Part shown: positions 8,340 through 55,190 of the stretch, piece after piece
How the letters are laid out: each line of letters starts with the position of its first letter
Numbering within the stretch: position 1 is the stretch's first letter
NCBI GenBank assembly: GCA_028622995.1
Contig: JAJQJQ010000002.1
Span: 9,858,001-9,922,000 of the forward strand
DNA length: 64,000 nt
Direction of reading: 5' to 3'
Source: Panagrolaimus kolymaensis
Lineage: Eukaryota > Nematoda > Chromadorea > Rhabditida > Panagrolaimidae
Notes under the pieces: generated by a model
Seen by the model: only the letters and a program-made list of their open reading frames with translations
Databases searched by the model: none
What the model was told of the DNA's origin: nothing
Made by a program: the position numbers and the translations under genes

Positions 8340-9006
8340 GGTTTTTGATTACTTGCAAATTAAATGTTACTGGAAAATAATAAATTTAATGTCAAAGTCA
8401 AATACCAAAAACCTTAATTTAAAGTTTTCTATTTTATTTATATTCCTTGTGGGTCAACAAAGAAACTAAAAATTGATAACTAAAAAAGCATGACAATTTC
8501 CAACACAAAGGAAATAAACTTGAATTTACTAAAATTTATATCTTCAAATAAAGTTAATTTTTATACACTTTCTTCAAATCTTGTAGTTACTAAACTTTAC
8601 AAATTAAATTAAAAAATCACATTTTTTTCTTTCTCCAACCACTTTTTTATTGAATTCCTTAAAAGAATTTAAAAGAAAGCTTAATTTAATAAATTTAATA
8701 AAATACCTCGTTGTTACTTTTTTTAAAACTTTGATTAATAATAAAATTTATTAAATAATTTATTGACATTTTATAAGCCTAATATATGCTGGCAATTTTT
8801 AGCTTTACAATATTTATATAATTCTCAGTAAAATTAAAATTGCTTTAATTTTAAATTACTAAAAACAGTATGATGCATTTTAAATTTTTATATTATTATA
8901 ATATCCCAAATTACCACCTGCTAAAATTATACCATTTAATGGACAATAGATTTTTGTAGTCCATATCTTACATCGAACATTTTTGTCCTTGTTAAATAAA
9001 AATTCT
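8340..9006. other. Intergenic, nothing recognised
   Basis: AT-rich sequence between srx copy B and a truncated lectin gene. The missing 5' exons of that lectin gene should lie here, but no CTLD-like exon is visible. Confidence 0.4.
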
Positions 9007-9866
9007 TAAATATAAATCGTGTCTTTTTTTACACGCAACGGAACTGTCATTTTAAACCTTTTGTTTGTTCTGTTGCAATATTTAATATTCCTACCACGAC
9101 AACAACAACTTCATCACCAACACCTCCTAGTTTTCCCATAGCTTATAATTGTAGTAATCCAGGATGGGTCTATTTATATGAAAGTGGATTTTGCTATGGA
9201 GCCTTCACAACATCATTATTGAATTTTACTGATTCAAAAAATCGTTGCAAAACTTTTGGAGCTCATTTACCTTCAACTCATAATCAAGGTGAAATTTATT
9301 TTCTTGCTAGTAAGTTTTTCAAAAAAAATTAAATATACATATATTTAATTTAAGGTGATTGTTTTTTTTTTTTAATTTAAAAAATGGCAGTAACACTCGC
9401 ATCAAAATAAAATAAAAAAAGTTGCGCTTTTTAGTTTCGAGAGTGGAAAAAAGAAAGATGAAAATAAATATGAAAATTTTTGTTAAATTAATTTTAGATC
9501 TTTTTTAATTTTTTTAAACTTCTAAACATCCTCAAACATAAAATACTTAGAAAGTCTTGAAGCGAAAATAAAATAAAATTGTTAAGCTTTTTTTTAAATG
9601 TATTTTACTTTAATTTTATAGAATATCTTAGTCGACGTTCTATTTGGCTTGGATTATATTCACCTGATGGAGGAAAAACTTGGGCATGGACGGATGGCAC
9701 TCCATTTGATTACCCTCAATGGAATACGCAATTTCCCATTCCAGGAGGGGGTTGTGGTTATTTGATTTCATATTCAGAAGATAATTTTATTGAAACATAT
9801 TATGAAAATACTGATTGCAATCAAACGTTTGATACTATTTGTAAAAAATCATATTTAGATAACTAA
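9007..9866 (+). pseudogene. Two-CTLD lectin gene, first domain mostly missing
   Basis: Exon a runs from an in-frame stop near 9007 to 9309; exon b is 9622-9866 (TAA); the join is in phase. Exon a opens with RNCHFKPFVCSV, the typical last strand of a CTLD, then a Thr/Ser/Pro linker, then the start of a second CTLD (WVYLYESGFCYG, C-TFGAHLPSTH). Exon b has SIWLGLYSPDGGKTWAW, WTDGTPFDYPQWN and the closing DC-TICKK. The second domain looks intact; the signal peptide and nearly all of domain 1 are missing. The gene at 15269 has the same two-domain plan and shows what the intact form was like. Residues giving classical sugar specificity (EPN/QPD plus WND) are not evident, so calcium-dependent binding is doubtful. 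Confidence 0.6.
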
Positions 9867-10385: not shown

Positions 10386-12126
10386 ATGCTGAAATGTTTT
10401 GTATTTATTTCAATTTTAATATTTTCTTCTATCATTGTTCTTATTTCTGGAACTAATTGCCCAAATGGAGCAATCCCAGGGTTTACAAGCGGTATTTGTT
10501 GGCTATTAAATAAAAATTCTATGAATTTTAATGATGCTGAAAAATATTGCAAAAGTAATAAAGGCCATCTTGTTAGCATTCATAGTGCCTTTGATAATAG
10601 TTATTTAGTAGGTAAGTATTGTAATAAGTTGACAAGGCCATTGATTGATGATGAATTTTTCAATCAACCAATACTTTTTAAGAGCTAATAATTAAAAATT
10701 TTTTTTGAGATTTTGGCTTAGAAAAATTTGTAAATAAATTAATCGTTTGTTTTATTGCAGATCAAGCATCTAAAGTCTTTAACCAGTCATCCAACATTAA
10801 TTTTTTTATTGGTGGAAATAATTTGAAAAATCATAATCAATGGACATGGGTGGATGGAAGCACCATGGATTACACGGATTGGGATCCTGGTTAGACTATT
10901 TTAGACCGTTATCACAAAATTATTATTACTTTTGAATCTTATTTATTTTTAGCTCAACCAACAAATTTTTCAACTAAAAATTGTATGGCTGTTAGCGTGA
11001 AAACAGGTTTATGGCATACCGCACTTTGTACTTTGCAAGCACCATTTGTGTGTTCATTTCATGATTCAGCTTCATCCACTTTTGAAAATCCTATTTTACC
11101 TTCTGGACCTGATCCATGGGTGCTTAAACATAATGGAACTTATTATTACACCCACACTTCCGCAACTCGAATAGTTATTTATAAAACTAAAGCTATGAGT
11201 GAATTAAGAAATGCTTCACCAGTAACTATATGGTACCCACCTTCCCAAGGATTATGGTCACAACAAATTTGGGCTCCAGAAATTCATTTTTATGATGGAA
11301 AATTTTATGTTTATTTTACTGCTGATGATGGTAATAATGATAATCATCGAGTTTATGTAATTGAAAATGCATCCCCTGATCCTACCATTGGGGCTTGGAC
11401 TTTTAAAGGTATCTAAGAAAATTTATTAAAATTATTGTGTTCAGCAAAAAATATTTACAAAACAATTATTTCACCAAAACAATATTTAATTAATTTTTAT
11501 ATTTAGGTAAAGTAGCTGATACCCAAAATGATCGATGGGCAATTGATTCGGATACTTTTGAATATAATGGCCAAAAATATCTTGTTTGGAGTGGATGGGA
11601 AGCGGCCGAAAATAATGGACAAAATATTTATATTGCAAAACTTTCCAATCCATGGACGGTTGATGGAAATCGAGTTAAAATTGCTCGACCTGAATATGAT
11701 TGGGAAATGAATGGAGCCCCTCCTATAATTAATGAAGGTCCTATCGGGCTTATTTCACCCAAAAATCAACTTTTTATAACTTATTCTGCAAGTGCATGTT
11801 GGTCGGATTACTATACATTGGGATTATTATCGCTTCAAGTAGGTGGAGATCCAATGAATCCTTCACATTGGACTAAAACTGATGCACCCGTATTCACCGA
11901 CACTCCAGCCAATGGAGCGTTTGGTCCAGGACATAATGGATTTTTTAAATCTCTCGATGATTCTGAATATTGGATCATTTATCATGCAAATAATTTAGAG
12001 GGTCAAGGTTGTGGTGATACTAGAAATCCAAGAATGCAAAAGTTCACATGGAATGACGATGACACTCCTAACTTTGGAGATCCTGTGGCTATCAATACTC
12101 CAATTCCAAAACCTTCGGGTGAATAA
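10386..12126 (+). CDS. Secreted C-type lectin domain fused to a GH43 glycosidase
   Basis: Four exons in phase: 10386-10611, 10761-10889, 10953-11408, 11507-12126 (TAA); 476 aa. Residues 1-23 form a signal peptide; about 25-152 are a CTLD (C-LLNKNSMNF, KGHLVSIHSAFDN, WTWVDGSTMDYTDW, closing APFVC at 148-152). From about 162 a GH43 five-bladed-propeller domain follows: GPDPWV with putative base Asp172, WAIDSD with Asp284, and INEGP with putative acid Glu347, so all three catalytic carboxylates are present. The domain boundary lies inside exon 3, so the fusion does not depend on a read-through between exons. GH43 enzymes usually cleave arabinan or xylan side chains. The GH43 part is likely of bacterial or fungal origin but now has a nematode-type intron inside it. 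The lectin could anchor the enzyme to a glycan; this is inference. Neighbours are lectin genes, which may have supplied the CTLD. Confidence 0.88.
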
Positions 12127-15268: not shown

Positions 15269-16218
15269 ATGGCTAATTTTGTTTTAAGTCTAATTTTTAT
15301 TTTATTGGTAGCTTTCGTGTTTTCTGAAAGTGCATGTCCCAGTAATACTACTCCATGGAATTCGCAATGCTTTATGTTTTTCAATGAAACCACTGGGTTT
15401 GCTGATGCTGAATTACGATGCAATCAAACAGGGGGACATTTAGCTTCAATTCATGATGGATTTGCAAATACACTTTTAGCACGTAAACATTTTTTAAATT
15501 TTTTCTTTGAAGTGCATAACTTTTAGAGGAGGCAAGCAAATACTTTCTTGATAGCACTGAAACTGATTTTTGGATTGGAGCAAATTCTCTCATGTTTCAT
15601 GGAAACTGGAGTTGGACCGATGGAACTCCATTTGATTTCAGTGATTGGAATAAAGGCGAACCACAAAATATTAGTGGTTCCAATTGTGCTGCTCAATCAA
15701 TAAATGATGGGTTTTGGAGTGCTGAAGATTGCTTTAAACCTAAACCTTTCGCTTGCGAAGTTCCAGCAACACCAACTTATCCTGATTTTGAAAACTGTAG
15801 CCTTGGATGGTTTTATTTTGAAAAATCTCATTCATGTTATGGGATAAATTTTGATGATTTAGTTGGAGTTAAACAAAATTGGACAGCTGCGCAAAAATAT
15901 TGTGAAAGCGTTGGAGCTCAACTTCCTTCCATTCATAGCTACGAAGAAGATTTATTTTTAAGATGCAAGAATTTAATTATTGAAAAAAAATATTTAAATT
16001 TTTTTACAGATCCTACTACTATCGTTTGGTCTGGCATTTGGATAGGACTTTATTCTACAGATGAGGGAAAAACATGGTTTTGGAGTGATGGTTCACCTAT
16101 AGATTATGATGGCTGGGTGACTAACTATCAACATCAAATACCACATAATGATACAACCGCCGTATATGCTATCATCGGGGCTGGTGGTTATGACAACTCT
16201 CACATAAATGATAATTGA
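15269..16218 (+). CDS. Secreted protein with two C-type lectin domains, 3' end damaged
   Basis: Exons 15269-15482, 15527-15964 and 16010-16218; 286 aa. A signal peptide (MANFVLSLIFILLVAFVFS) is followed by CTLD1 with GGHLASIHDGF, WSWTDGTPFDFSDWNKGEPQN and closing DC-KPFACEV, then CTLD2 with CYGINFDDL, AQLPSIHSYEED, GIWIGLYSTDEGKTW and WSDGSPIDYDGW. The intron at 15965-16009 (45 nt) has a GC donor (GAT|GCAAGA) at the site where the paralogue at 9007 has a GT intron; because 45 is a multiple of three, retention would also keep the frame. The frame ends at TGA 16216-16218, yet the sequence past it continues in the same frame as YAMCKKPAK and then TAA at 16246-16248, the normal CTLD ending. The third conserved Cys of CTLD2 is also absent. 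CTLD2 is therefore probably losing function. Confidence 0.7.
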
Positions 16219-16985: not shown

Positions 16986-18964
16986 ATGATGGAAGTTGAT
17001 TCTATTTGTGGAATGGTATTGACTGATCTACCCAATGAAGTCCTCGTAAGTTGGTTATTATCAGTGTTGTTCCTTGTGATTTTTCCCGCCCGTCGCCCGC
17101 TCGCCGCCCGCGGCATTTCCAAAAAGACGCCCGCGTCCGCCCGTGCGCCCGCCAATTTTCTAATTCTCGCCCGTGCCCGCCCGTCGCCCGCAAAATTTTC
17201 AATTTTTTCTATTAAAAATCGAGTTTTTTCGACAAAAAATTTGAATTTTTAAATTTTTTTAAAAAGTTGCCCTCCGCCCGCCCGGCGCCCGCGAATTTAT
17301 CAAAACTCCGCCCGTCGCCCGCCCGCCGCCCGCGGGCGGGCGCTTGCGGGCGGGCGTTTGGCGGGCGAGTAACATCACTGGTTATTATCTTTAATTTGAT
17401 TATTCTCATTCGTATATATTATTTATATACCAAACTTTATACCTCCTTTTTACATGAGGCTTTTGTAGGGAAAAATTATGGATTTTGTCTCTTTCGATGA
17501 TCTCTTCCGCCTTGAACGAGTTAATAAACGAGTTTGTGATGTTGTAATGAATGTTGCATGGCCGAAAATACATACAATAAACCATGAATCAATTATCAAA
17601 TTCACTGATTACCCTATTATTCCTAAAAGTTATATACATATCAAAGAACCCGAACGACATAACCTTAATAATAAATCAGTAAGATTTCAAAGTGAACAAA
17701 AATAAAATGATAAATTTTTCTTAATTTCCCTTTTTTTTAGGTTAAATTGCTTTTATATCGAACAACAAATCTTAAACATCTTGATCTCTCATTTTATTGG
17801 GATAAAATAACTTCTCAAATTATTTCCCATCTTTACAAGAATCCTCAACTTATTTCACTCAATTTATCACGGGTATCATTAACAAATGATAACTTGAAAG
17901 CCATTGCCAATAGTTGCCCAATGCTTGAAAAACTTTATCTACTAAAATGCTTTAAAGCAGAATTTGAAGATGGTTTAAAATTTTTGTTTAATCGATGCCC
18001 AAATATTTCAAATTTGGATCTTGGAAGCAATGATGATCTTCTGGGTGCCTCTTTTGCTTATATTCCAACCAAATTTAAATATATGAATATCTCTGATTGT
18101 AAAAACCTTACTTCTACAGCCATGAATGTTTTGGCGGACCGAGCAACAAATTTGGAAACGCTTATCATTGATAATTTCTCTCCCAAATCCGATGTGAATG
18201 TTTGGCTTCGAAAATTAACAAAATTACGATGCTTGAAATTTGATGGCACTTATAGTGATCGCTGCCCACCTCTAAATTTATCATATTTGAAAGAATTAGA
18301 AATGCTTTCTCTAACTCGAAACTCTTTGGTAACACTCGAAACTTTGGAATCTCTAAAAAAATGTCCAAAGTTGAAAGGTTTTGATTGTGGTTTCTTTAAT
18401 GATCATGGAAATTCTTTGGAAATTTTTAAGCAATACAAAGCATTGAAATATTGTGGATTAAATTTTTGGAATGAAAAAATGAATGATAATTTAGTTGATT
18501 TTGTTCAAACAAGTAAAATTGAAGTAAGTTTTTTTATTAATGGATCAAATAATTTTTTTGACGGCTTTTTTTAGTATTTATCTCTTAATGATTGCAACTT
18601 TCTTTCATACAATCTTTTAAAATTGTTAATTACTGAATGCAATGTAAGTTTATTTTTTTATTTTTATATAAAAAAATATTTACATAAATGAATTTATTTT
18701 TTTCAGTCCCTTTCTGTATTGGAAGTTTTTTGTTCATATCCTGAAGTCATAAATGAAGATTATAACAGAATGTTTGCAAGTATTCTTTCCAAGGAAAATG
18801 AAACTCGTTCAAATCTTCTCAAATTAATTATTCCACAAGACATACAAAAATTTCCCCCACTAAAATTCTGCGAAATTATTCCAGCTAGAGAATATATGTT
18901 ATCCTACCCATCCACCTATCAATTAATTAGCAAAGCAATCGAAGAAAATAAAATTGATTTATAA
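16986..18964 (+). CDS. F-box and leucine-rich-repeat protein
   Basis: Five exons in phase: 16986-17045, 17469-17678, 17741-18523, 18575-18643, 18707-18964 (TAA); 459 aa. The F-box is split by intron 1: LTDLPNEVL in exon 1 and GKIMDFVSFDDLFRL plus V-N-K-R-V-C in exon 2 (residues about 12-46). From about residue 95 come irregular LRRs of the AMN1/FBXL type (LKHLDLS, ISLNLSRVSLTNDNLKAIA, LEKLYLLKC, ISNLDLGSN). Such proteins are substrate receptors of SCF ubiquitin ligases; the target is unknown. Intron 1 holds a hAT-type MITE (17062-17380). A 770-bp piece of exons 3-4 is duplicated at 23741-24510. Confidence 0.82.
17062..17380. mobile_element. hAT-type MITE, 319 bp, GC-rich, in the F-box intron
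   Basis: Ends are CAGTGTTGTT on the left and, reverse-complemented, CAGTGATGTT on the right, with an exact 8-bp target duplication GTTATTAT at 17054-17061 and 17381-17388. The inside is made of CCCGCCCG-like tracts, pairing as a large hairpin near the right end and wholly unlike the surrounding AT-rich DNA. It encodes nothing; long open frames across it are artefacts of the GC repeats. With its duplication it makes up about three quarters of the 423-bp intron. Confidence 0.85.
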
Positions 18965-23740: not shown

Positions 23741-24510
23741 CCTCAAATTATTTCACTCAATTTATCACGGGTATCATTAACAAATGATAACTTGAAAGCC
23801 ATTGCCAATAGTTGCCCAATGCTTGAAAAACTTTATCTACTAAAATGCTTTAAAGCAGAATTTGAAGATGGTTTAAAATTTTTGTTTAATCGATGCCCAA
23901 ATATTTCAAATTTGGATCTTGGAAGCAATGATGATCTTCTGGGTGCCTCTTTTGCTTATATTCCAACCAAATTTAAATATATGAATATCTCTGATTGTAA
24001 AAACCTTACTTCTACAGCCATGAATGTTTTGGCGGACCGAGCAACAAATTTGGAAACGCTTATCATTGATAATTTCTCTCCCAAATCCGATGTGAATGTT
24101 TGGCTTCGAAAATTAACAAAATTACGATGCTTGAAATTTGATGGCACTTATAGTGATCGCTGCCCACCTCTAAATTTATCATATTTGAAAGAATTAGAAA
24201 TGCTTTCTCTAACTCGAAACTCTTTGGTAACACTCGAAACTTTGGAATCTCTAAAAAAATGTCCAAAGTTGAAAGGTTTTGATTGTGGTTTCTTTAATGA
24301 TCATGGAAATTCTTTGGAAATTTTTAAGCAATACAAAGCATTGAAATATTGTGGATTAAATTTTTGGAATGAAAAAATGAATGATAATTTAGTTGATTTT
24401 GTTCAAACAAGTAAAATTGAAGTAAGTTTTTTTATTAATGGATCAAATAATTTTTTTGACGGCTTTTTTTAGTATTTATCTCTTAATGATTGCAACTTTC
24501 TTTCATACAA
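23741..24510 (+). pseudogene. Duplicated fragment of the F-box/LRR gene
   Basis: Matches 17843-18612 at a constant offset of 5898 bp; I saw one mismatch, at 23747. The copy includes intron 3 (original 18524-18574), so it came by DNA duplication, not through mRNA. It has no F-box exon, starts inside the LRR region and stops mid-exon 4, and its flanks are unrelated to those of the source gene. The open frame of about 248 aa is kept only because the copy is recent. Confidence 0.85.
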
Positions 24511-25196: not shown

Positions 25197-28100
25197 ATGA
25201 CGATCTTTTTTTATTTTTTCTTATTGCTTTTTAATTTTATAAATTTACTTTCTGCTTTAAACTCAACATTAATATGTGAAGGTGAAACTGTCATTAACCT
25301 GATGACGGATGAATTAATATTTTTTGAAACTTTAAATTTTCCATCGAATATGAAAAACTCTTGCAATCTTACGTTTGTTATGGGAAAATACCAAAATGAT
25401 AGCGTAAGTTATTTATAATTTATACAAATTAATCATTAAAAAATAATTTAACAGAATTTAAAATTTGTTATTTCATTTACAAATGGTTTTGGAAGTGTTA
25501 ATTTATTATCTGGAGATCAAGAGTAAGTGTTTTGTCTTTTTGGTTTTTTTATTAGCCATGATACGGTAGCAATTAGAGATGCAAAAATATGTAAGGAGTA
25601 CCCTTTGAGTTTTAAGAAGATTTTTGAAATTGATTTGCGGCCCTGCGATCAAACTTAAAATGCCCATAACTCGATATCTCTCTTGCAGCAGCCGGTGAGA
25701 GCTGTCGGTGCATCGAAATTTCTTCGATTTGATTTTCAATGCACCGAATCGAATCCCGATTTTTTTCGATTCGGTGCACAGAAAATCGAAAAATCGACAG
25801 CTCTGCCGGCGAGACTCTGATTTTAGCCATAATTTTTAGCGTACTTTCACGTGGTATAAGAGAAATCTTCAAAAGTTGAAATCACCTCTGAAGGTTCCCA
25901 TGTAAGGTTTCTAAAATGTAGGCTTTTTAAGACTTACCTATCCACATTATGTTCTGTAAGATGTTGGGTTGTTGCTCCTCGATCTTACACAATGTGATTG
26001 AGACAATAGATTAAGAGTTTCCGGTTTATTATCACGTTACATGTACAATACAAACAGTACAATCAATAGGGTCAAAGGGGACAAATGTTCGCTTGGCCGG
26101 CCAATAATATCTTCTTTAAAGGACGACTATATTTTCTGTATTTTTCAAATTTTTTCAAACGACGCGCGCGTCTGTCCCCAAGTGGTAAAGCGTTTTGAAC
26201 ATCGAAATACCGTAATGCTACAGTAATATCTCACTTCAAAATTACTGTAGCATTACGGTATGTCGATGTTCAAAACGCTTTACCACTTGGGGACAGACGA
26301 GCGCGTCGTTTGAAACTATTTGAAAAATACAGAAAGTATAGTCGTGTTTTAAGTTAAGTCGACTGGATCGTCTCCAGGGTGCACGAGAAAAGTGACAAAA
26401 GCGATGTGCTTTTATACAATAGTTGCTGGCGGCTGCATCTTGGACGTCGATGGTCTCTCTTGTGAGTGTAGTGTCTCGCGATGTTTTGTCATTCACGTGG
26501 TTCTGGATCATTCGATATTTCCAAAGATGTTTTCATTCGATCATGAAAGCTCTTATGAAATGGTTCTCGATTGTTCCATCTTGCGAAAGCTTGACCGTTC
26601 GATCAGCTATGAACGCATATGCGTCATTTATAGTGGAGGAGTCATAGTGATCGTTTGTGGCTATTTCTACTTCATTGGGCCGCCCACAAGCACGGCCCAG
26701 CCGCAGCCTTTCACATTTATTATTGTACGCGGTCACCTGGCTTGTCGTTGCTTGTGCGTTGATGATCAAAGTTCACATTTTATCCGTGTTTTCAGGCTTG
26801 GAATCGTCAACTCCCTTGCAGTTCCACTCATTTATAACACAACAAGCACACCATTTACTATTCAGCCCCATTTAACAGATTCTCCTGTTGCATTTCAAGG
26901 TCACATCTATGTGGATGATTGGAATGGTGGATGTCCTTTGGAATCAATTATGACAATGGATCCTTTTGTTTTTGAGGATGAAACACAAATTATCTATTTG
27001 TCTGAAAATTTCTACAAAAGCTTATATAAACCTAAATATTGTTTATGGCGATTTACAATACCTAGAAATTTTATGTTAAAATTTGTGATGATTCGTTTAG
27101 GCAGTACTGCATCGATAAGTATCAGGGATGAAAATAAAGAAATTTATTTTGCCACGTATGCTTTTATCTTTTTTTCCATTTTATTATATGTTAATTTTAC
27201 TTTTGTTTGATTTGGAATAAGATGCCATCATGCATTAAAAAAAGGATACGGTACCTGATTCTAAATCAAAGCAAAAATGAACAAATTTGTTTATATAAAT
27301 TAATCCATTTTTCTGTGAATTGGCGTCGTTTTTTGAAAGAAAATCGACATATAATTTTGTAAAAATGGAATTATTTTGCAGAGGATATTATGGTAATGGT
27401 ATTCCTGAAATAATATATGGTTCACCCCCTTATTTTATTGAACGACATATAGCGATATCTTATAAGTTTTCTCCTTCCAACTTCAATACTGATGGGCTAA
27501 AAGCTTATGTTACCGTAACAAAGCTTACACCCAGCATCAAAGGTGATTGTGATATAACCAAAAATGGAAAAAATATCACAACATGGAAAATTAGTAATTA
27601 TCCAAATAATATTTATTGCCATTATAATTTTTCCATACTTTTTGGAACTCAAATACTTGTAAACGTAAAACAATTTTATGTTGAACAATATGTTGATAAT
27701 TTGATATTTTATACTGAAGGAGAGAAGCTTTCTGTCAGTAATGTTATCCTTCGGGGAAATACTTTTGTATTTACTTCACAGAATAATTTATTTCATAGTT
27801 ACGTGGTGGGCGAATTTATATCTGATGGAAGCGTTCGATCAGCCGGATTTGAACTAACATTTGAAACAATTGGTATTCTTTCTTTTATTTTAAGTAAAAA
27901 TTCATAAAATTAAACTTTGTAAAAAAACAAAAACAAAAAAAGCGAAACTCAAAAGTAAAATTTTTTATGAGAGCTCTTTTGTTCTTAATTCCATATCGAA
28001 AGCGTGACTACCTTCGCAAAATTCGCCCTGCTTTCAAAAAAATTCGAAACATTATGAATCTCCGATTTCGTTATGAATTTGAAAAGTTAGAATTTAAGTT

Positions 28101-40364: not shown

Positions 40365-43300
40365 TTAAAATTCTAACATTTTTACAATTTTATTATTAGA
40401 ATAATGGCGAATAAAATATTTTCTGCTTTCATTATAAATTATTAGATATATTCCAACGATCGGAGCAAAAATCCATACATATGCTGGAGGTTGATAAATA
40501 TCCATAAAGAATTGCATAGCTGGAGTATAAATAAATAAAAAAAGTAATAAAATTTCAATAATTACAGCAAAAACTGAAATTAAATTTGAAAATCCATGAT
40601 TTATGATACTTGTTCGTCTTGTTTTGCACATAAATAAATGAATAACCTAAAAAATTATTATAATTAAATTTTTTATACATTTTTTTGTTGTTATTGCTTA
40701 AAAGAGCACTCCCATTTGACTCAAATTCTTGCTTATGACATGTTTTACATACCTCCTACCTACCTCGAAAGTTCTTTGTCAAACCCATTTCTAAAAACTA
40801 AAAAAAACTTTGTAAAACTTTCAAAATTTTTCGAAACCTTTCGAAATGGACTTGACAAACAAAGAACTTTCGCACTAGGAAGTAAAACATTTCGTAATCA
40901 AAAATTTGATTCAGGTGGGAGTGAGTGCCCCTTTTAATTATTATTACTTGAGATAAAACAAGAGTAAGTTGCCATGCTGCAGCGGCTTGACCTCTAATAA
41001 ATATTTGATTTTGAGCAGAAAAAATTTTACCATTAGATATGGTAAAATTGCCTGAATCTATTTTCCATTGGGTATTAGCTGTGAATAAAAGTTCTGTGGG
41101 ATATATTCCATGATAATAATAAACAAATAAATATGCTGCTAAACATCCTATAGTTATACTACATCCAGCAAAACCATATGAATATATAAGTAAATTTTTT
41201 GTGACTAATCTTTCTTTCTTTGATCTTGGAGGTAATTTCATTATATTTCTTTCAGGATTTTCATATACTAAAGCAATGGATGGAGGTAATTCGGTTGCTA
41301 AATCAATACTTAAAATTTGTAATGGTTCAAGACCCAATGGCATTCCTAAAATAAAATTAAGAATAATTGGAAATATTTCTGCCCATAAATGTGATAATGT
41401 ATATGCAATGGACATTCGCAAATTATCAAACATTAATCGACCTTCTTCGATTCCTTTAACAATTGAAGCAAAATTATCATCGGTTATAATTATATCGGCT
41501 GTCATTCGAGATATATCATTTCCACTATGACCCATAGCAATACCTATATCAGCTTTAGCTAAGGCTGGAACATCATTAACGTTGCCACCTTAAAAATTTT
41601 TTTTTAATTTTTTATTTCATTGTTTCTTATTTTAAAAAAATTAAAAAAGGTCGCAGGATGGTTTTTTGTAGATAAAATCGAGCACAACTTTTATATTTAG
41701 TAAAAAAAAGAGAAAAAAACCTTTACTTTTTTGTTTCGAAAATTTCATTCACATATATTTTCTAGATTTAAAATGAAAATAAAAAAAGAAAGTTAAAAGG
41801 AGGCCTTTCAGCAAAACACTGCGAAAAAGAGCTTTAGCAATGAAAATTTTGAACTTGCATTTTTTGTTTTGTTTTGCCGACGACAGGCCTCCTTGAAAGT
41901 ATAAAATGAATTAATTATTCCAATTAAGGTTGTTGAATTTCCCGGGAAATGGGAAAATGGAAAAATTTCCTAAGAAAAATCATGAAATTTTCCATAAATC
42001 TTTTTTGACAACCCTAATTCCAATCATGAGAATTTAACATTTTATTATATTTTACTCAAAATTTTTTTTTATTTTGTTACTTACCTGTAACAGCAACAAT
42101 TTCATCTATTTTTTGTAATTCTTCAATAATTTTTAATTTTTGATCTGGATTTGTACGAGCAAATACAATATATTTATGATTTAATAATATTTTCCATTGT
42201 TTTGATGTCATTCCATCCAATGATTCACCCAAAACAATCGTAGAATGGTCAGTTTTAGATTTAAATTCCAAATTTCCTTTATTTTTTACTAAATCATTTA
42301 TTAATCCTATTTGACTTGCTATAGCTGCAGCAGAAGTAGGATGATCTCCAGTAATCATATATATTTTTATTCCAGCATTTTTACATTGTTGTATAGCTTC
42401 AGCTGCTTCAGGTCTGGGAGGATCCACCATAGCTGCCATACCTATGAAGATGAGATTATTTTGAGGATAATTAGTTGATGTGGTTTTAAATTTTTCATCA
42501 AATGATGATATAAAATGTTTTTGTGCAAATCCAAGTACTCGATATCCTTCACATCCATAATGTTCCCATGCTTCCTTAAAAAAATAATTAAGCAAAAATC
42601 AAAAATAGAACAAACAAAAAAACAAACCCTGCATCGCTCGACAAAAGTTTCATTTATTTCCATTAATTTATCATCCAATAAATAATGACTACATTTTTCT
42701 AAAATTACTTCAGGTGCACCCTTAATCATAACAATATTTACTATTTGATTTTCTTCTTTAGTTTCAAAAATTTCAGATTCAACATTTATACTTTGTGGAG
42801 TTGTTTGTTGACATCTCGCAATAACAAGTTGCCATCGACGAACAGAATTAAATGGAATTTCAAATAATATTGGATATTGAGCACGAAATGCATCGACAGC
42901 TGTTACACTTTCAACATATTCCAATAATGAAGTTTCAATGGGAGTACCAATGATTTTATTTTTATTTTCTGGTGAAGAAACATAAAACTTTTTTGCATTT
43001 TTTCCTTCTTCAATTTGAACTGAATTATCGGAAGGTTCTTTGATAGTTAATTTTCCACTTTGAGTTCTAAAAAAAATAAAAAAACAATTATTAATAATTA
43101 ATTTTTGTTTTCTCCGAACAAAACTTTAAAGGACGACTACACTTTCTGTTTTTTTCAAATTGTTTCAAACGAACCGCGGTTCTGTCCCCAAGTGGTAAAG
43201 TGCTTTGAACATCGAAAAACCGTAATGCTACAGTAATTTGGAAGTGAGATATTACTGTAGCATTACGGTTTTTCGATGTTCAAAGCACTTTACCACTTGG

Positions 43301-46300
43301 GGACAGAACCGCGGTTCGTTTGAAACAATTTGAAAAAAACAGAAAGTGTAGTCGTCCTTTAACCTTTTTTTTGACAAAAAAGGGATATTTTTTTTATATT
43401 TTTTAAAAACTTACATAACAGTAAACTTTTTCTTTAATTTTACAACAGATTGCAATTTAGATTTTTGTTCTAAAACCATTTTAGTTGAAACTCTTGGCAT
43501 ACCTTCGACTTTATCTTCAAATTGGGCTTTGTTACAAACTGACATAATTGAAAGCAAATCAATAAAAGATTTATCAAATTCATCTTTTAACATATTTTTG
43601 CTAATTATAGGGATGTGTTTTTTATTTAAACCTAAAAAATAAAAAGAATACTTTTATAAAAAAAATAGTGTTTCATCCTTTTTCTGTCCCAGTAATTTGT
43701 TGGTTAATGAACTTATAATTTAAAAACCATTCAAGCTCTGCATATAAATATATTCGTTTTAATTAATTTTGTTTTTCTTGATTTATTAATTCTCAGGCAC
43801 TTTATTTTCTTTACTTAGTGGTTTTATTAAAAAAAGAAATTGTTTTCTTGCCCAGAAAATTTCCCAATAAAAAAAATATTTGTTTTATATAATATTTAGA
43901 AACTATATCCAAATCTTAATTACAATCTAACCTGGTTGCTCCTTTCCATTAAACCAAACTTTCATGACTTTCATATAATTTTGAGTTAAACTAGCTTTTT
44001 TGTCCGTGCAAATAACCGTAGCTGCGCCAAGTTTATCAATTGCATCAGGATTTTTAATAAAAACATTTTTCTTTGCCATTCTTTTTGATATAATTGATTT
44101 TTGTGACATAACAATTGCGGGTAAACCTTGTGGAATATTTGCAATAACAATAATGAGAAAGCCATAAACAAAATAATATAAAATATTTTGAAATTTAGAA
44201 AGTATGCAACCAATTACAAAAAAGAAAAATGCCATGGATAAAGCAAAACATGAAATATAATTAACAAATTGATCTAAATCTTTTTGTAATCCTGATTTTG
44301 GAGTTAACCACGTTGTTTGATAATTGGCTATTTGGGATAAAGTCTATAAAAGTAAAACATATAATTTTTAATTTTACATTTACTTTATAAAAAAATCAAG
44401 CCGCATGAGATATTTCAAAATGCTAGAGTTTTTTAATTGTTAAATTCACTTTGAAAAAAAATCGACTCAGTATTTATATTCGAAAATAAAAACCCTATTT
44501 TTTAGTTCATTGCAAATATAAGTCTTTTAGGGGCATTAGTTTACTGTATCATTACATTGACTTTTTTCGTTCTTTTTTAGTTACGCTTTTAAAAACTTGC
44601 ATATTTTTTACATTTTTTTGATGAAAAAAAAGAACATTCAAAGAATTTTTCTTGATAAATGTTGTTCAGAAAAGTGATAAATAAATAAATTTTAAAAAGT
44701 GAGAGGATGATAAAATAAATTAGCTTGATTTTTTATGTTTAAAAACTTACTGTGTAAACTCCAGTTCTTATAACTAAGCCAATTCCATCGCCTTCAACAC
44801 AATAAGACCCTTTGAAGGCAACATTTTTAGCATCATAAACATTTATATGCCGAGCAACAGATTCACTATAATATTCATCAATTTCGCCTATAAGTTTCAT
44901 TTTTTATATATTTTATAAACAAAATATTTGTGTTTTATATTTAAATTATTAAATACCTGTTAAAATAGACGATTCAATTTTTAAGCCATTAGCCTTTAAA
45001 ATTCGTATATCAGCTAAAATTTTTTGACCATAACTAAAACAAAAAAACTTTAGTTTAAAACATAAAAAAATTAAAAAAAATTAACCTAAAAATAATAATA
45101 TCACCAACAACCAAATTTTCACATGGTATATTAATAGCTTTATTTCCTCGAATTACTGTAGCCTTTTCAGACATGACATCTTTAAAAGTTTTTGAAACAC
45201 TCATAGTTTCTTTTTCTTGTTGATATGAAATATAACTCATTAATATTACTATAGCTATTAATAAAATAGAACAATATAAATTCATGGATTCCATTCGATC
45301 ATGAAATAAATGAATTGTATATGTTATTAAACTAATTAAAGCAGCCAAAAATAAAAGAATCCAAAATTTATGTAAAAATTGTTTTAAAAAAAGATAAAAA
45401 TTATTTTGTTTTTGTTTGTTTGATTTTGGCAATGGTGAAATATTTTTTCCTCCATCATTTAAACGGCTTTCAGCTTCATCTAAATCAAGACCATCAGAAT
45501 TTTCAGGATTTTCTGGATCAATGTATGACGAGGAATGAACATTAGCAAGTTCTCGCAAAGTTAAATAATGTTCAACAAAGGATGTATTAATTTTTTCATT
45601 TGTAACATTTGCATTTTCAATAGATTCTTTGGGTGAAATACGTTTTTTACGAAAAAATGAAAAATTTAATTTGGCTAAAAAATGTAAAATTATTGTCAAT
45701 TTTAACATAATTATGTATTATTTTTCCTATCTCTCTCTCTTTTTTTCAAGATATTTTGCGACAGTCTATATATGCGAAAATTTGCATGAAAAATACTTAC
45801 AAGGAAATGGATTAGCACGCAAATCGCTGGGGAGATTTGGCTTAAACCAATCGATAGAACTCTGAAAGTTGGGCTATGGGCCAAAATCCTATCGACCCGT
45901 CAATCCAAAAAATAATAGCTTTGTCAGGTCAAAAGATGAGCAAAAACAATGAAAAACCATCATTTTTCCGATACTTAGAAAATTTTTTAAAGTTTCAGCA
46001 AAACGCCAAAAAAAGGAAAGCAATAAAAAAAATGACTGAAAAAGGAAAAAAAAGTGCAAAAAGTTTCTAAATCCAGGAATTTTAAACTTTGACCTGGCAA
46101 AACTATTTTTTTTTTTGAATTGGTAGGCCGCTGGTATTTTGACTTTTTGATTAAACTTTTGGAGCTCTTTCAGTTGGTATAAGCAAAAACTCCCCAACGA
46201 TTGGATGACATGCTAATCCGTTCCCTTGTTAGCTTATGGCGAGGTTAACTTTATTTATGGATATAACAATATTTAATTATCCGGGATTTTTTAATACAAT

Positions 46301-50959: not shown

Positions 50960-51388
50960 TTATTCATGAGCTTTCCGTCCCATTTCTGCATATCCTTCAC
51001 TAATAAGTTGTTGCTTGCGAGCTTCACCACCTTTTACAGCAATTTCATGAACTCGTTCGGGATCCATTGAAGCAAAGCCTTGATTTCCAGGCTCTTCTTT
51101 TGAATCATTAGAAGATTCATTGTGAGATTCAACGCCACCGCCGCCCATTTTTCCAAGCTTTGAATATGCATCCGAAGCAATTTGTTCTTTTCGGGCATCA
51201 CCGGCTTCATGTCCAAAAACGGGCAATTCACCTTCTTTAACCCCTAAACCACCAAGAGCGGCAATTTGTTTAACTCGATCAGTATCCATTGAAGCAAAAC
51301 CTTGATTTCCGGGCATGATTGATAAATATTAAATTTGTAATTTATCTTAAAAAAGAAATCATTAGCAATTTTTATTCTTCTTAATATT
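50082..51388. repeat. Segmental duplication, copy 1 (carries KGG/LEA gene 1)
   Basis: About 1.3 kb matching 53874-55190, in direct orientation, 3.8 kb apart. The last 0.85 kb, including the gene, is nearly identical; the first part has more substitutions and small indels. Copy and copy flank are the gene plus its 3' side, with about 70 bp of 5' side. Confidence 0.85.
50960..51316 (-). CDS. KGG / group 1 LEA-like stress protein, copy 1
   Basis: Single exon, 118 aa, no signal peptide or membrane segment, Gly/Glu/Lys-rich and almost without hydrophobic residues. Two units alternate: GNQGFASMDTDRVKQIAALGG (3-23) and GNQGFASMDPERVHEIAVKGG (77-97), as in bacterial KGG stress proteins, and ARKEQIASDAYSKLGKMGG (41-59) and ARKQQLISEGYAEMGRK (99-115), the 20-mer motif of group 1 (Em, LEA_5) late-embryogenesis proteins. 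Such proteins protect cells during drying. Group 1 LEAs are known from plants, some bacteria and Artemia, whereas nematode LEAs are mainly group 3; a transferred origin is plausible. The ATG is followed directly by the first unit, which supports the start. Confidence 0.82.
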   Translation of the reverse strand: MPGNQGFASMDTDRVKQIAALGGLGVKEGELPVFGHEAGDARKEQIASDAYSKLGKMGGGGVESHNESSNDSKEEPGNQGFASMDPERVHEIAVKGGEARKQQLISEGYAEMGRKAHE

Positions 51389-54761: not shown

Positions 54762-55190
54762 TTATTCATGAGCTTTCCGTCCCATTTCTGCATATCCTTC
54801 ACTAATAAGTTGTTGCTTGCGAGCTTCACCACCTTTTACAGCAATTTCATGAACTCGTTCGGGATCCATTGAAGCAAAGCCTTGATTTCCATGTTCTTCT
54901 TTTGAATCATTAGAAGATTCATTGTGAGATTCAACGCCACCGCCGCCCATTTTTCCAAGCTTTGAATATGCATCCGAAGCAATTTGTTCTTTTCGGGCAT
55001 CACCGGCTTCATGACCAAAAACGGGCAATTCACCTTCTTTAACCCCTAAACCACCAAGAGCGGCAATTTGTTTAACTCGATCAGTATCCATTGAAGCAAA
55101 ACCTTGATTTCCGGGCATGATTGATAAATATTAAATTTGTAATTTATCTTAAAAAGAAATCATTAACAATTATTTTTTTCTTAATATTAG
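53874..55190. repeat. Segmental duplication, copy 2 (carries KGG/LEA gene 2)
   Basis: Direct repeat of 50082-51388. Identity is highest from about 54290 to 55160. Confidence 0.85.
54762..55118 (-). CDS. KGG / group 1 LEA-like stress protein, copy 2
   Basis: 118 aa, identical to copy 1 except residue 76 (His here, Pro in copy 1) in the linker between the two halves. Single exon, no signal peptide. The domain plan is that of copy 1: GFASMD units at 6-11 and 80-85, Em-type ARKEQ/ARKQQ motifs at 41 and 99. Near identity including the 3' flank means recent duplication or gene conversion. More than one copy may raise dosage of a highly expressed protectant. Confidence 0.82.
   Translation of the reverse strand: MPGNQGFASMDTDRVKQIAALGGLGVKEGELPVFGHEAGDARKEQIASDAYSKLGKMGGGGVESHNESSNDSKEEHGNQGFASMDPERVHEIAVKGGEARKQQLISEGYAEMGRKAHE

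Follow-up and report, generated by a model that had tools for sequence, protein, structure and literature searches.

How does a glycosidase of family GH43 come to stand behind a C-type lectin-like domain (CTLD) in a single nematode gene, and what does the lectin-like half do for the enzyme? The gene in question lies in a stretch of 64,000 nt (the window) from the permafrost species Panagrolaimus kolymaensis, a free-living, culturable worm. Cryptobiosis is a known trait of this species (PMC10374039). We consider it probable that the protein joins a nematode CTLD to a GH43 domain likely of Bacteroidota origin, that it acts as a predicted secreted exo-1,5-alpha-L-arabinofuranosidase, and that a single transfer followed by a single fusion produced it.

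The locus carries a real CTLD-GH43 fusion gene with intact catalytic residues (Table 1). Its protein runs from a hydrophobic N-terminus through a CTLD, whose six cysteines (25, 38, 55, 129, 144 and 152) we infer to be paired as in the C-type lectin-like fold, and a short linker to a GH43 domain that reaches the C-terminus, and the frame closes with TAA at 12124-12126. Searched exon by exon with Pfam, Lectin_C (PF00059) matched exon 1 just over the cut-off (E 1.6e-4), exon 2, as a single piece, below it (E 9e-4) and the start of exon 3 weakly (0.17), while the whole CTLD matched 169 sequences in the PDB at E up to 0.001. Glyco_hydro_43 (PF04616) matched exon 3 at E 4.8e-23 (profile 1-109) and exon 4 at E 1.4e-31 (profile 117-288 of 288), and together these two exons cover the profile over nearly its full length; NCBIfam gave one match far below its cut-off for exon 3 and none for exon 4. 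Thus, the CTLD and the GH43 domain which an earlier note on this DNA had proposed for one protein, behind a predicted signal-peptide-type leader, were recovered by the domain search. The three catalytic carboxylates which that note had named, Asp172, Asp284 and Glu347, are likewise not misplaced, as they align with D168, D283 and E344 of PDB 9nxg (positions counted by hand), the mutagenesis-tested triad of AtAbf43C.

Table 1. Positions in the window of the fusion gene, its parts and adjacent CTLD genes
Feature	Position	Strand	Details
Whole fusion gene	10386-12126	+	four exons; three GT..AG introns, all phase 1; 476-residue ORF
Exon 1: predicted signal peptide (hydrophobic leader), N-terminal half of CTLD	10386..10611	+	donor GTAAGT
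Intron 1	10612..10760	+	149 nt, phase 1; shared in position and phase with the unfused two-CTLD gene (15269)
Exon 2: middle of CTLD	10761..10889	+	Pfam
Intron 2	10890..10952	+	63 nt, phase 1; GT..AG
Exon 3: CTLD end, fusion junction, first third of GH43	10953..11408	+	Pfam; D172 at 11111-11113
Fusion junction: linker codons 153-160	11054..11077	+	same place in P0001 and P0002
Intron 3, within the bacterial-type GH43 domain	11409..11506	+	98 nt, phase 1; position identical in 5/5 genomic copies
Exon 4: rest of GH43 and stop	11507..12126	+	Pfam; D284 at 11545-11547, E347 at 11734-11736
Unfused neighbour gene with two CTLDs	15269..16218	+	first CTLD: exons 15269-15482 and from 15527; model without 3' end
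Upstream CTLD gene pieces	9000..9866	+	gap of about 520 nt to the start of the fusion gene

The gene is not alone in its genome. We searched 265,843,910 bases in 807 contigs, with the window gene on contig 1; the assembly is described as triploid, with 266 Mb in 856 contigs, 49 of which were identified as mitochondrial (PMC10374039). With all 11 candidates scored, the GH43 family search yielded ten matching exons, which belong to five loci, each on a different contig of megabase length. At all five a CTLD lies upstream of GH43, no internal stops occur, and splicing gives an open frame of either 476 or 485 residues, the three intron positions being identical throughout. Two groups of paralogues can be told apart: contigs 1 and 7 carry group A, contigs 14, 19 and 34 group B. 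Contig 47 (1299500-1309400) carries a sixth, truncated copy, of group A, whose match to the window ends in exon 2 near position 10785. Next to it the neighbour CTLD gene stands in inverted orientation, and the same family search found no GH43 on this contig. Two groups with five intact copies and one truncated copy fit two paralogues in three subgenomes, with damage to a single copy.

Codon 152 encodes the final cysteine of the CTLD, and GH43 begins close to codon 161 (from 11078), so that the junction falls within exon 3, where the earlier note had placed it. That note had concluded that the gene was no read-through, and the wider evidence agrees: chance and read-through are excluded because five intact copies share the same introns and two fused relatives come from other sources, and a read-through produced by gene prediction is already ruled out by a junction inside one exon together with the five copies. 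The GC3 of the GH43 part (19.1%) is host-like, as the CTLD part has 22.4% and four other pieces of the window 17.8-22.3%, against a median of 57.7% and a minimum of 25.9 in 80 bacterial GH43 loci. An artefact of assembly, gene model or contamination would be in keeping with the fact that the named GH43 relatives outside nematodes are bacterial, but we give it almost no credence in view of the introns in GH43, the host-like GC3, the five copies on five megabase contigs and the fused relatives elsewhere. Bacterial contamination in particular is ruled out by introns, GC3 and the long contigs.

Where, then, did the enzyme half originate? Among the best 80 of 573 confirmed stretches in the genome collection, its relatives were titled Bacteroidota and, in some cases, Acidobacteriota, and the named relatives among the listed protein matches, many of which are nameless, were all bacterial apart from two nematode entries. 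A GH43 phylogeny, one of the checks proposed in the earlier note, was built from 96 rows (six nematode or nematode-like rows, 45 of the 136 other listed proteins and 45 of the 80 loci), and the six rows formed one clade amid bacterial sequences with support of 100/99. The clade reappeared in a FastTree of 222 rows (96) and, enlarged by four other copies from P. kolymaensis itself, in a tree of 52 rows (10 rows, 100/99). Branch support inside it is moderate, and one member, P0071, stood with the window in the 96-row tree (100/95) and with the genome's own copies in the 52-row tree (81/39). All of these trees are unrooted, and their resolution stops short of the nearest bacterial branch. From this pattern the GH43 half was likely gained horizontally from bacteria, with a member of the Bacteroidota as donor. 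Hence the horizontal transfer suspected earlier is upheld in its bacterial form; the fungal source also considered is unsupported, since the named relatives in the general collections, where many entries are nameless, are bacterial or nematode.

Relatives of the whole protein were sought with the window protein (3381 matches among 5946 candidates) and with a profile (3474 among 6561), the best 120 being listed in each case. PF00059 and PF04616 occur together in 2 of the 120 proteins listed by each search, namely P0001 and P0002, which were also the top two of the protein search. P0001 (479 aa, matching the query at 58% across 100% of its length) is full length and comes from a single JGI contig, whose 1579 nt barely exceed the reading frame. 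Given the three introns of the window gene, this uninterrupted frame of 479 codons looks like that of a spliced transcript. P0002, from Panagrolaimus sp. PS1159 (Panagrolaimidae), has 439 aa (56% over 93%) in a model without leader. Domain order and the place of the junction are the same in both as in the window protein. P0005 and P0007, also inside the nematode clade, consist of a leader and GH43 without CTLD, their longest contigs (1346 and 1106 nt) being little above reading-frame length, and P0071, a protein of A. nanus (Acrobeloides; Cephalobidae), begins inside the GH43 domain. P0002 and P0071 alone are named as nematode by their source, whereas P0001, P0005 and P0007 are placed there by the GH43 tree, and P0001 by its CTLD as well. 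None of 47 pattern matches in viral contigs encodes a relative, and a protein search with the CTLD only, whose length limits left out fused proteins, gave 8 candidates and no significant match.

Are these fused genes the outcome of one fusion or of several? We compared seven fused CTLDs with 14 unfused ones, that is, the neighbour at 15269 and 13 from the same genome. The latter were those of 27 loci, some of them fusion exons themselves, that satisfied a filter on length and absence of stops; several stem from a single gene present in nearly identical copies, intron-split CTLDs with stops were left out, and some retained rows include in-frame intron residues. All seven fused CTLDs fell into one clade (100/100). 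P0001 and P0002 are parted from the genome's own copies in both trees, with moderate support (CTLD 93/84 and 81/79; GH43 92/89 and 97/96), and P0005 and P0007 lie within the P0001/P0002 branch (95/80, 52-row GH43 tree). Forcing the three fused rows of the 96-row tree into a clade of their own gave an AU p of 0.028, or 0.058 when P0071 was added. As the fused rows alone are rejected as a clade, a single fusion requires later loss of the CTLD; the p value of 0.028 is expected under such a loss, and equally under two captures. A resident unfused GH43 gene resembling P0005 or P0007 that captured a CTLD two or more times would indeed explain both this value and the unfused rows inside the clade. 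Nevertheless, we regard repeated capture as improbable, because the fused CTLDs form one clade, both trees separate P0001 and P0002 from the genome's own copies, and the junction has the same place in all three proteins. With a single CTLD clade, and with P0005 and P0007 inside the P0001/P0002 branch, one transfer and one fusion appear the simplest reading of these trees, in which the CTLD-free relatives suggest that the domain was later lost.

The earlier note had looked to the surrounding CTLD cluster for the donor, and this expectation fared less well. The neighbour at 15269 belongs to the same CTLD family as the fusion, as the first CTLD intron is shared in position and phase, but its CTLD is 37% identical to the fused CTLD of the window (44-48% among the three fused CTLDs compared), and its nearest rows in the tree are other unfused CTLDs. 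As a specific donor this two-CTLD gene is ruled out by the separate clade of the fused CTLDs; the other nearby pieces were outside the tree. The genome harbours a very large CTLD family, with at least 188 exon matches when 150 of 1106 candidates had been scored. The donor was some member of this family, and a source in the local cluster is unsupported.

Elsewhere in the window, two LRR-type ORFs (17843-18142 and 23741-24040), 5.9 kb apart, are 100% identical over at least 300 nt. The segments 26114-26352 and 43124-43362, 17 kb apart, form a direct repeat of 239 nt (86%) and also an inverted pair of 237 nt (89% complementary), which makes it a self-complementary element, probably a dispersed one. 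The ORF at 549-1121 matches DUF7869 and is possibly of mobile-element origin, and scans of the window for Rfam families and tRNAs gave no hit. Two near-identical ORFs occupy 50960-51328 and 54762-55130, both on the minus strand; the first matches KGG (E 7.7e-13) and LEA_5 (E 1.4e-10) in Pfam, and this group 1 LEA-like protein, of desiccation type, may be another transfer.

With regard to function, 9nxg and 3akf, two structures of subfamily GH43_26, are among the closest solved ones in a comparison by sequence and in one by fold, the latter made with the P0001 model. The Foldseek top ten of this model (9nxg/h/j, 5m8b, 3k1u, 3aki/f, 5m8e) span TMt values of 0.61-0.92, the GH43_26 status of the 9nx and 3ak entries being taken from PMC12493170. 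The GH43 part is modelled as a five-bladed propeller with nearly all blocks at a pLDDT of at least 90; the CTLD part lies mostly below 50, and two fused sequences alone cover it in the alignment. The GH43 domains of AtAbf43C (9nxg) and SaAraf43A (3akf) are each 40% identical to that of the P0001 model (319 and 315 alignment columns), and AtAbf43C shares with the window protein both the triad and an N-terminal accessory module. According to PMC12493170, alanine mutants of the AtAbf43C triad are inactive, the same three residues are essential in AtAbf43C and SaAraf43A, and each of ten previously characterised GH43_26 enzymes is an alpha-1,5-arabinofuranosidase, with 1,5-linked arabinan and arabino-oligosaccharides as substrates. 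We therefore predict by homology that the window protein would be a secreted exo-1,5-alpha-L-arabinofuranosidase. The two bacterial enzymes carry a CBM42, however, whereas the fusion, known here from sequence, carries an animal CTLD in a nuclear, intron-bearing gene.

What the CTLD contributes is less clear-cut. The calcium/sugar site of C-type lectins is canonically marked by EPN or QPD, plus WND. These motifs are absent from the window CTLD, which reads QPT and WHT instead; the other four copies have HPS or EPT with WHT, P0001 has EPV with WHS, and P0002 has EPN with WYS. A binding role is thus unsupported by the sequence, and the case for the glycan-binding arm envisaged in the earlier note is weakened. 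The fusion may even have provided nothing but a signal peptide and a stable N-terminus, with the enzyme acting by itself. Besides the missing motifs, this would agree with P0005 and P0007, which imply that the enzyme can manage without a CTLD, and with the faster evolution of the CTLD than of GH43 between the two group A copies (dN/dS of 0.54 by NG86 and 0.35 by YN00, compared with 0.11 and 0.05). On the other hand, the CTLD is kept in all five genomic copies, and between groups A and B its dN/dS (NG86, 6 pairs) is 0.21-0.24, comparable to 0.20-0.25 for GH43, which indicates constraint beyond that of a leader; since copies within each group are nearly alike, the six pairs amount to about one comparison, and YN00 values apply within groups only. 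Within group B, values are 0.04-0.10 for the CTLD and 0.01-0.06 for GH43. Constraint acts on both domains, more weakly on the CTLD when the copies of group A are compared with each other, and a merely passive CTLD seems to us quite possible while falling short of probable.

Two more specific roles appear doubtful, though conceivable. First, the CTLD may have replaced the bacterial CBM and, with a calcium-independent specificity for plant cell-wall polymers, may steer the arabinofuranosidase; if true, this would be a targeting solution unseen among its bacterial relatives. Second, the protein could serve in defence or at the surface, trimming arabinose from microbial or the worm's own surface glycans rather than in digestion. 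The abundance of CTLD exons in the genome would suit such a role, and P. kolymaensis is not a known plant parasite. It sits poorly with the closest characterised enzymes, which act on plant arabinan and arabino-oligosaccharides (PMC12493170).

Fusions of animal and transferred sequences are not new as such. In arthropods, 104 origins of HGT-chimeras were reported, including a copepod chitin-deacetylase/peritrophin gene (PMC13389597), in which, as here, a transferred carbohydrate enzyme and an animal domain of carbohydrate-binding type share one frame under purifying selection. By the definition used there, the fusion genes of P. kolymaensis likewise hold animal and non-animal regions in a single reading frame, and their NG86 dN/dS points to purifying selection. 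The arthropod cases involve other domains and had RT-PCR support in 36 of 41 tested, while the present fusion is known from genome sequence; that survey deals with arthropods only, and neither "nematode" nor "Nematoda" occurs in its main text. The oskar gene (LOTUS plus bacterial OSK; PMC7250577, PMC13389597) also unites animal and bacterial-origin domains, which are unrelated to ours in kind and function. Transferred GH43 genes have in turn been described in Panagrolaimus, where GH43 is among the conserved Pfam domains of transfer candidates (PMC6889759), in root-knot nematodes (PMC3511272) and in the springtail Folsomia (FcAraf43; PMC9460274), and the available passages of these papers mention no fusion. 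FcAraf43 is active on pNP-alpha-L-arabinofuranoside, and as it groups with Thermoanaerobacterium and Paenibacillus enzymes (PMC9460274), it likely stems from a separate transfer. The main text of the P. kolymaensis genome paper (PMC10374039) contains none of the terms "horizontal", "lectin" and "glycos", and our searches of an open-access library brought up no description of a CTLD-GH43 fusion. By the earlier note the architecture would be new; it is not confined to this locus, for two other sources and a further four intact genes of the same genome also have it.

The history that we favour would begin with one transfer of a bacterial gene into an ancestor of Panagrolaimus, perhaps already one shared with Acrobeloides, followed by a single fusion, inside an exon, behind the CTLD of a lectin gene, from which the enzyme would have obtained a leader peptide of animal type and an N-terminal module rich in cysteines. 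An intron would then have been gained in the enzyme half of the fused gene, and a duplication would have led to groups A and B, both carried into the subgenomes of the triploid. In the protein, the CTLD would stand at the N-terminus, as CBM42 does in AtAbf43C, and may retain the enzyme in the extracellular space or lend it stability there, while the five-bladed propeller would trim terminal arabinose from the arabinan or arabino-oligosaccharides of plant debris.

The fusion thus represents a clear nematode case of an animal domain joined to a transferred bacterial enzyme, kept intact through duplication and triploidy with both halves under constraint. It lets one test by what route enzymes gained through transfer come to be secreted by an animal and equipped with its accessory domains, and whether a CTLD can be the binding module of a glycosidase.
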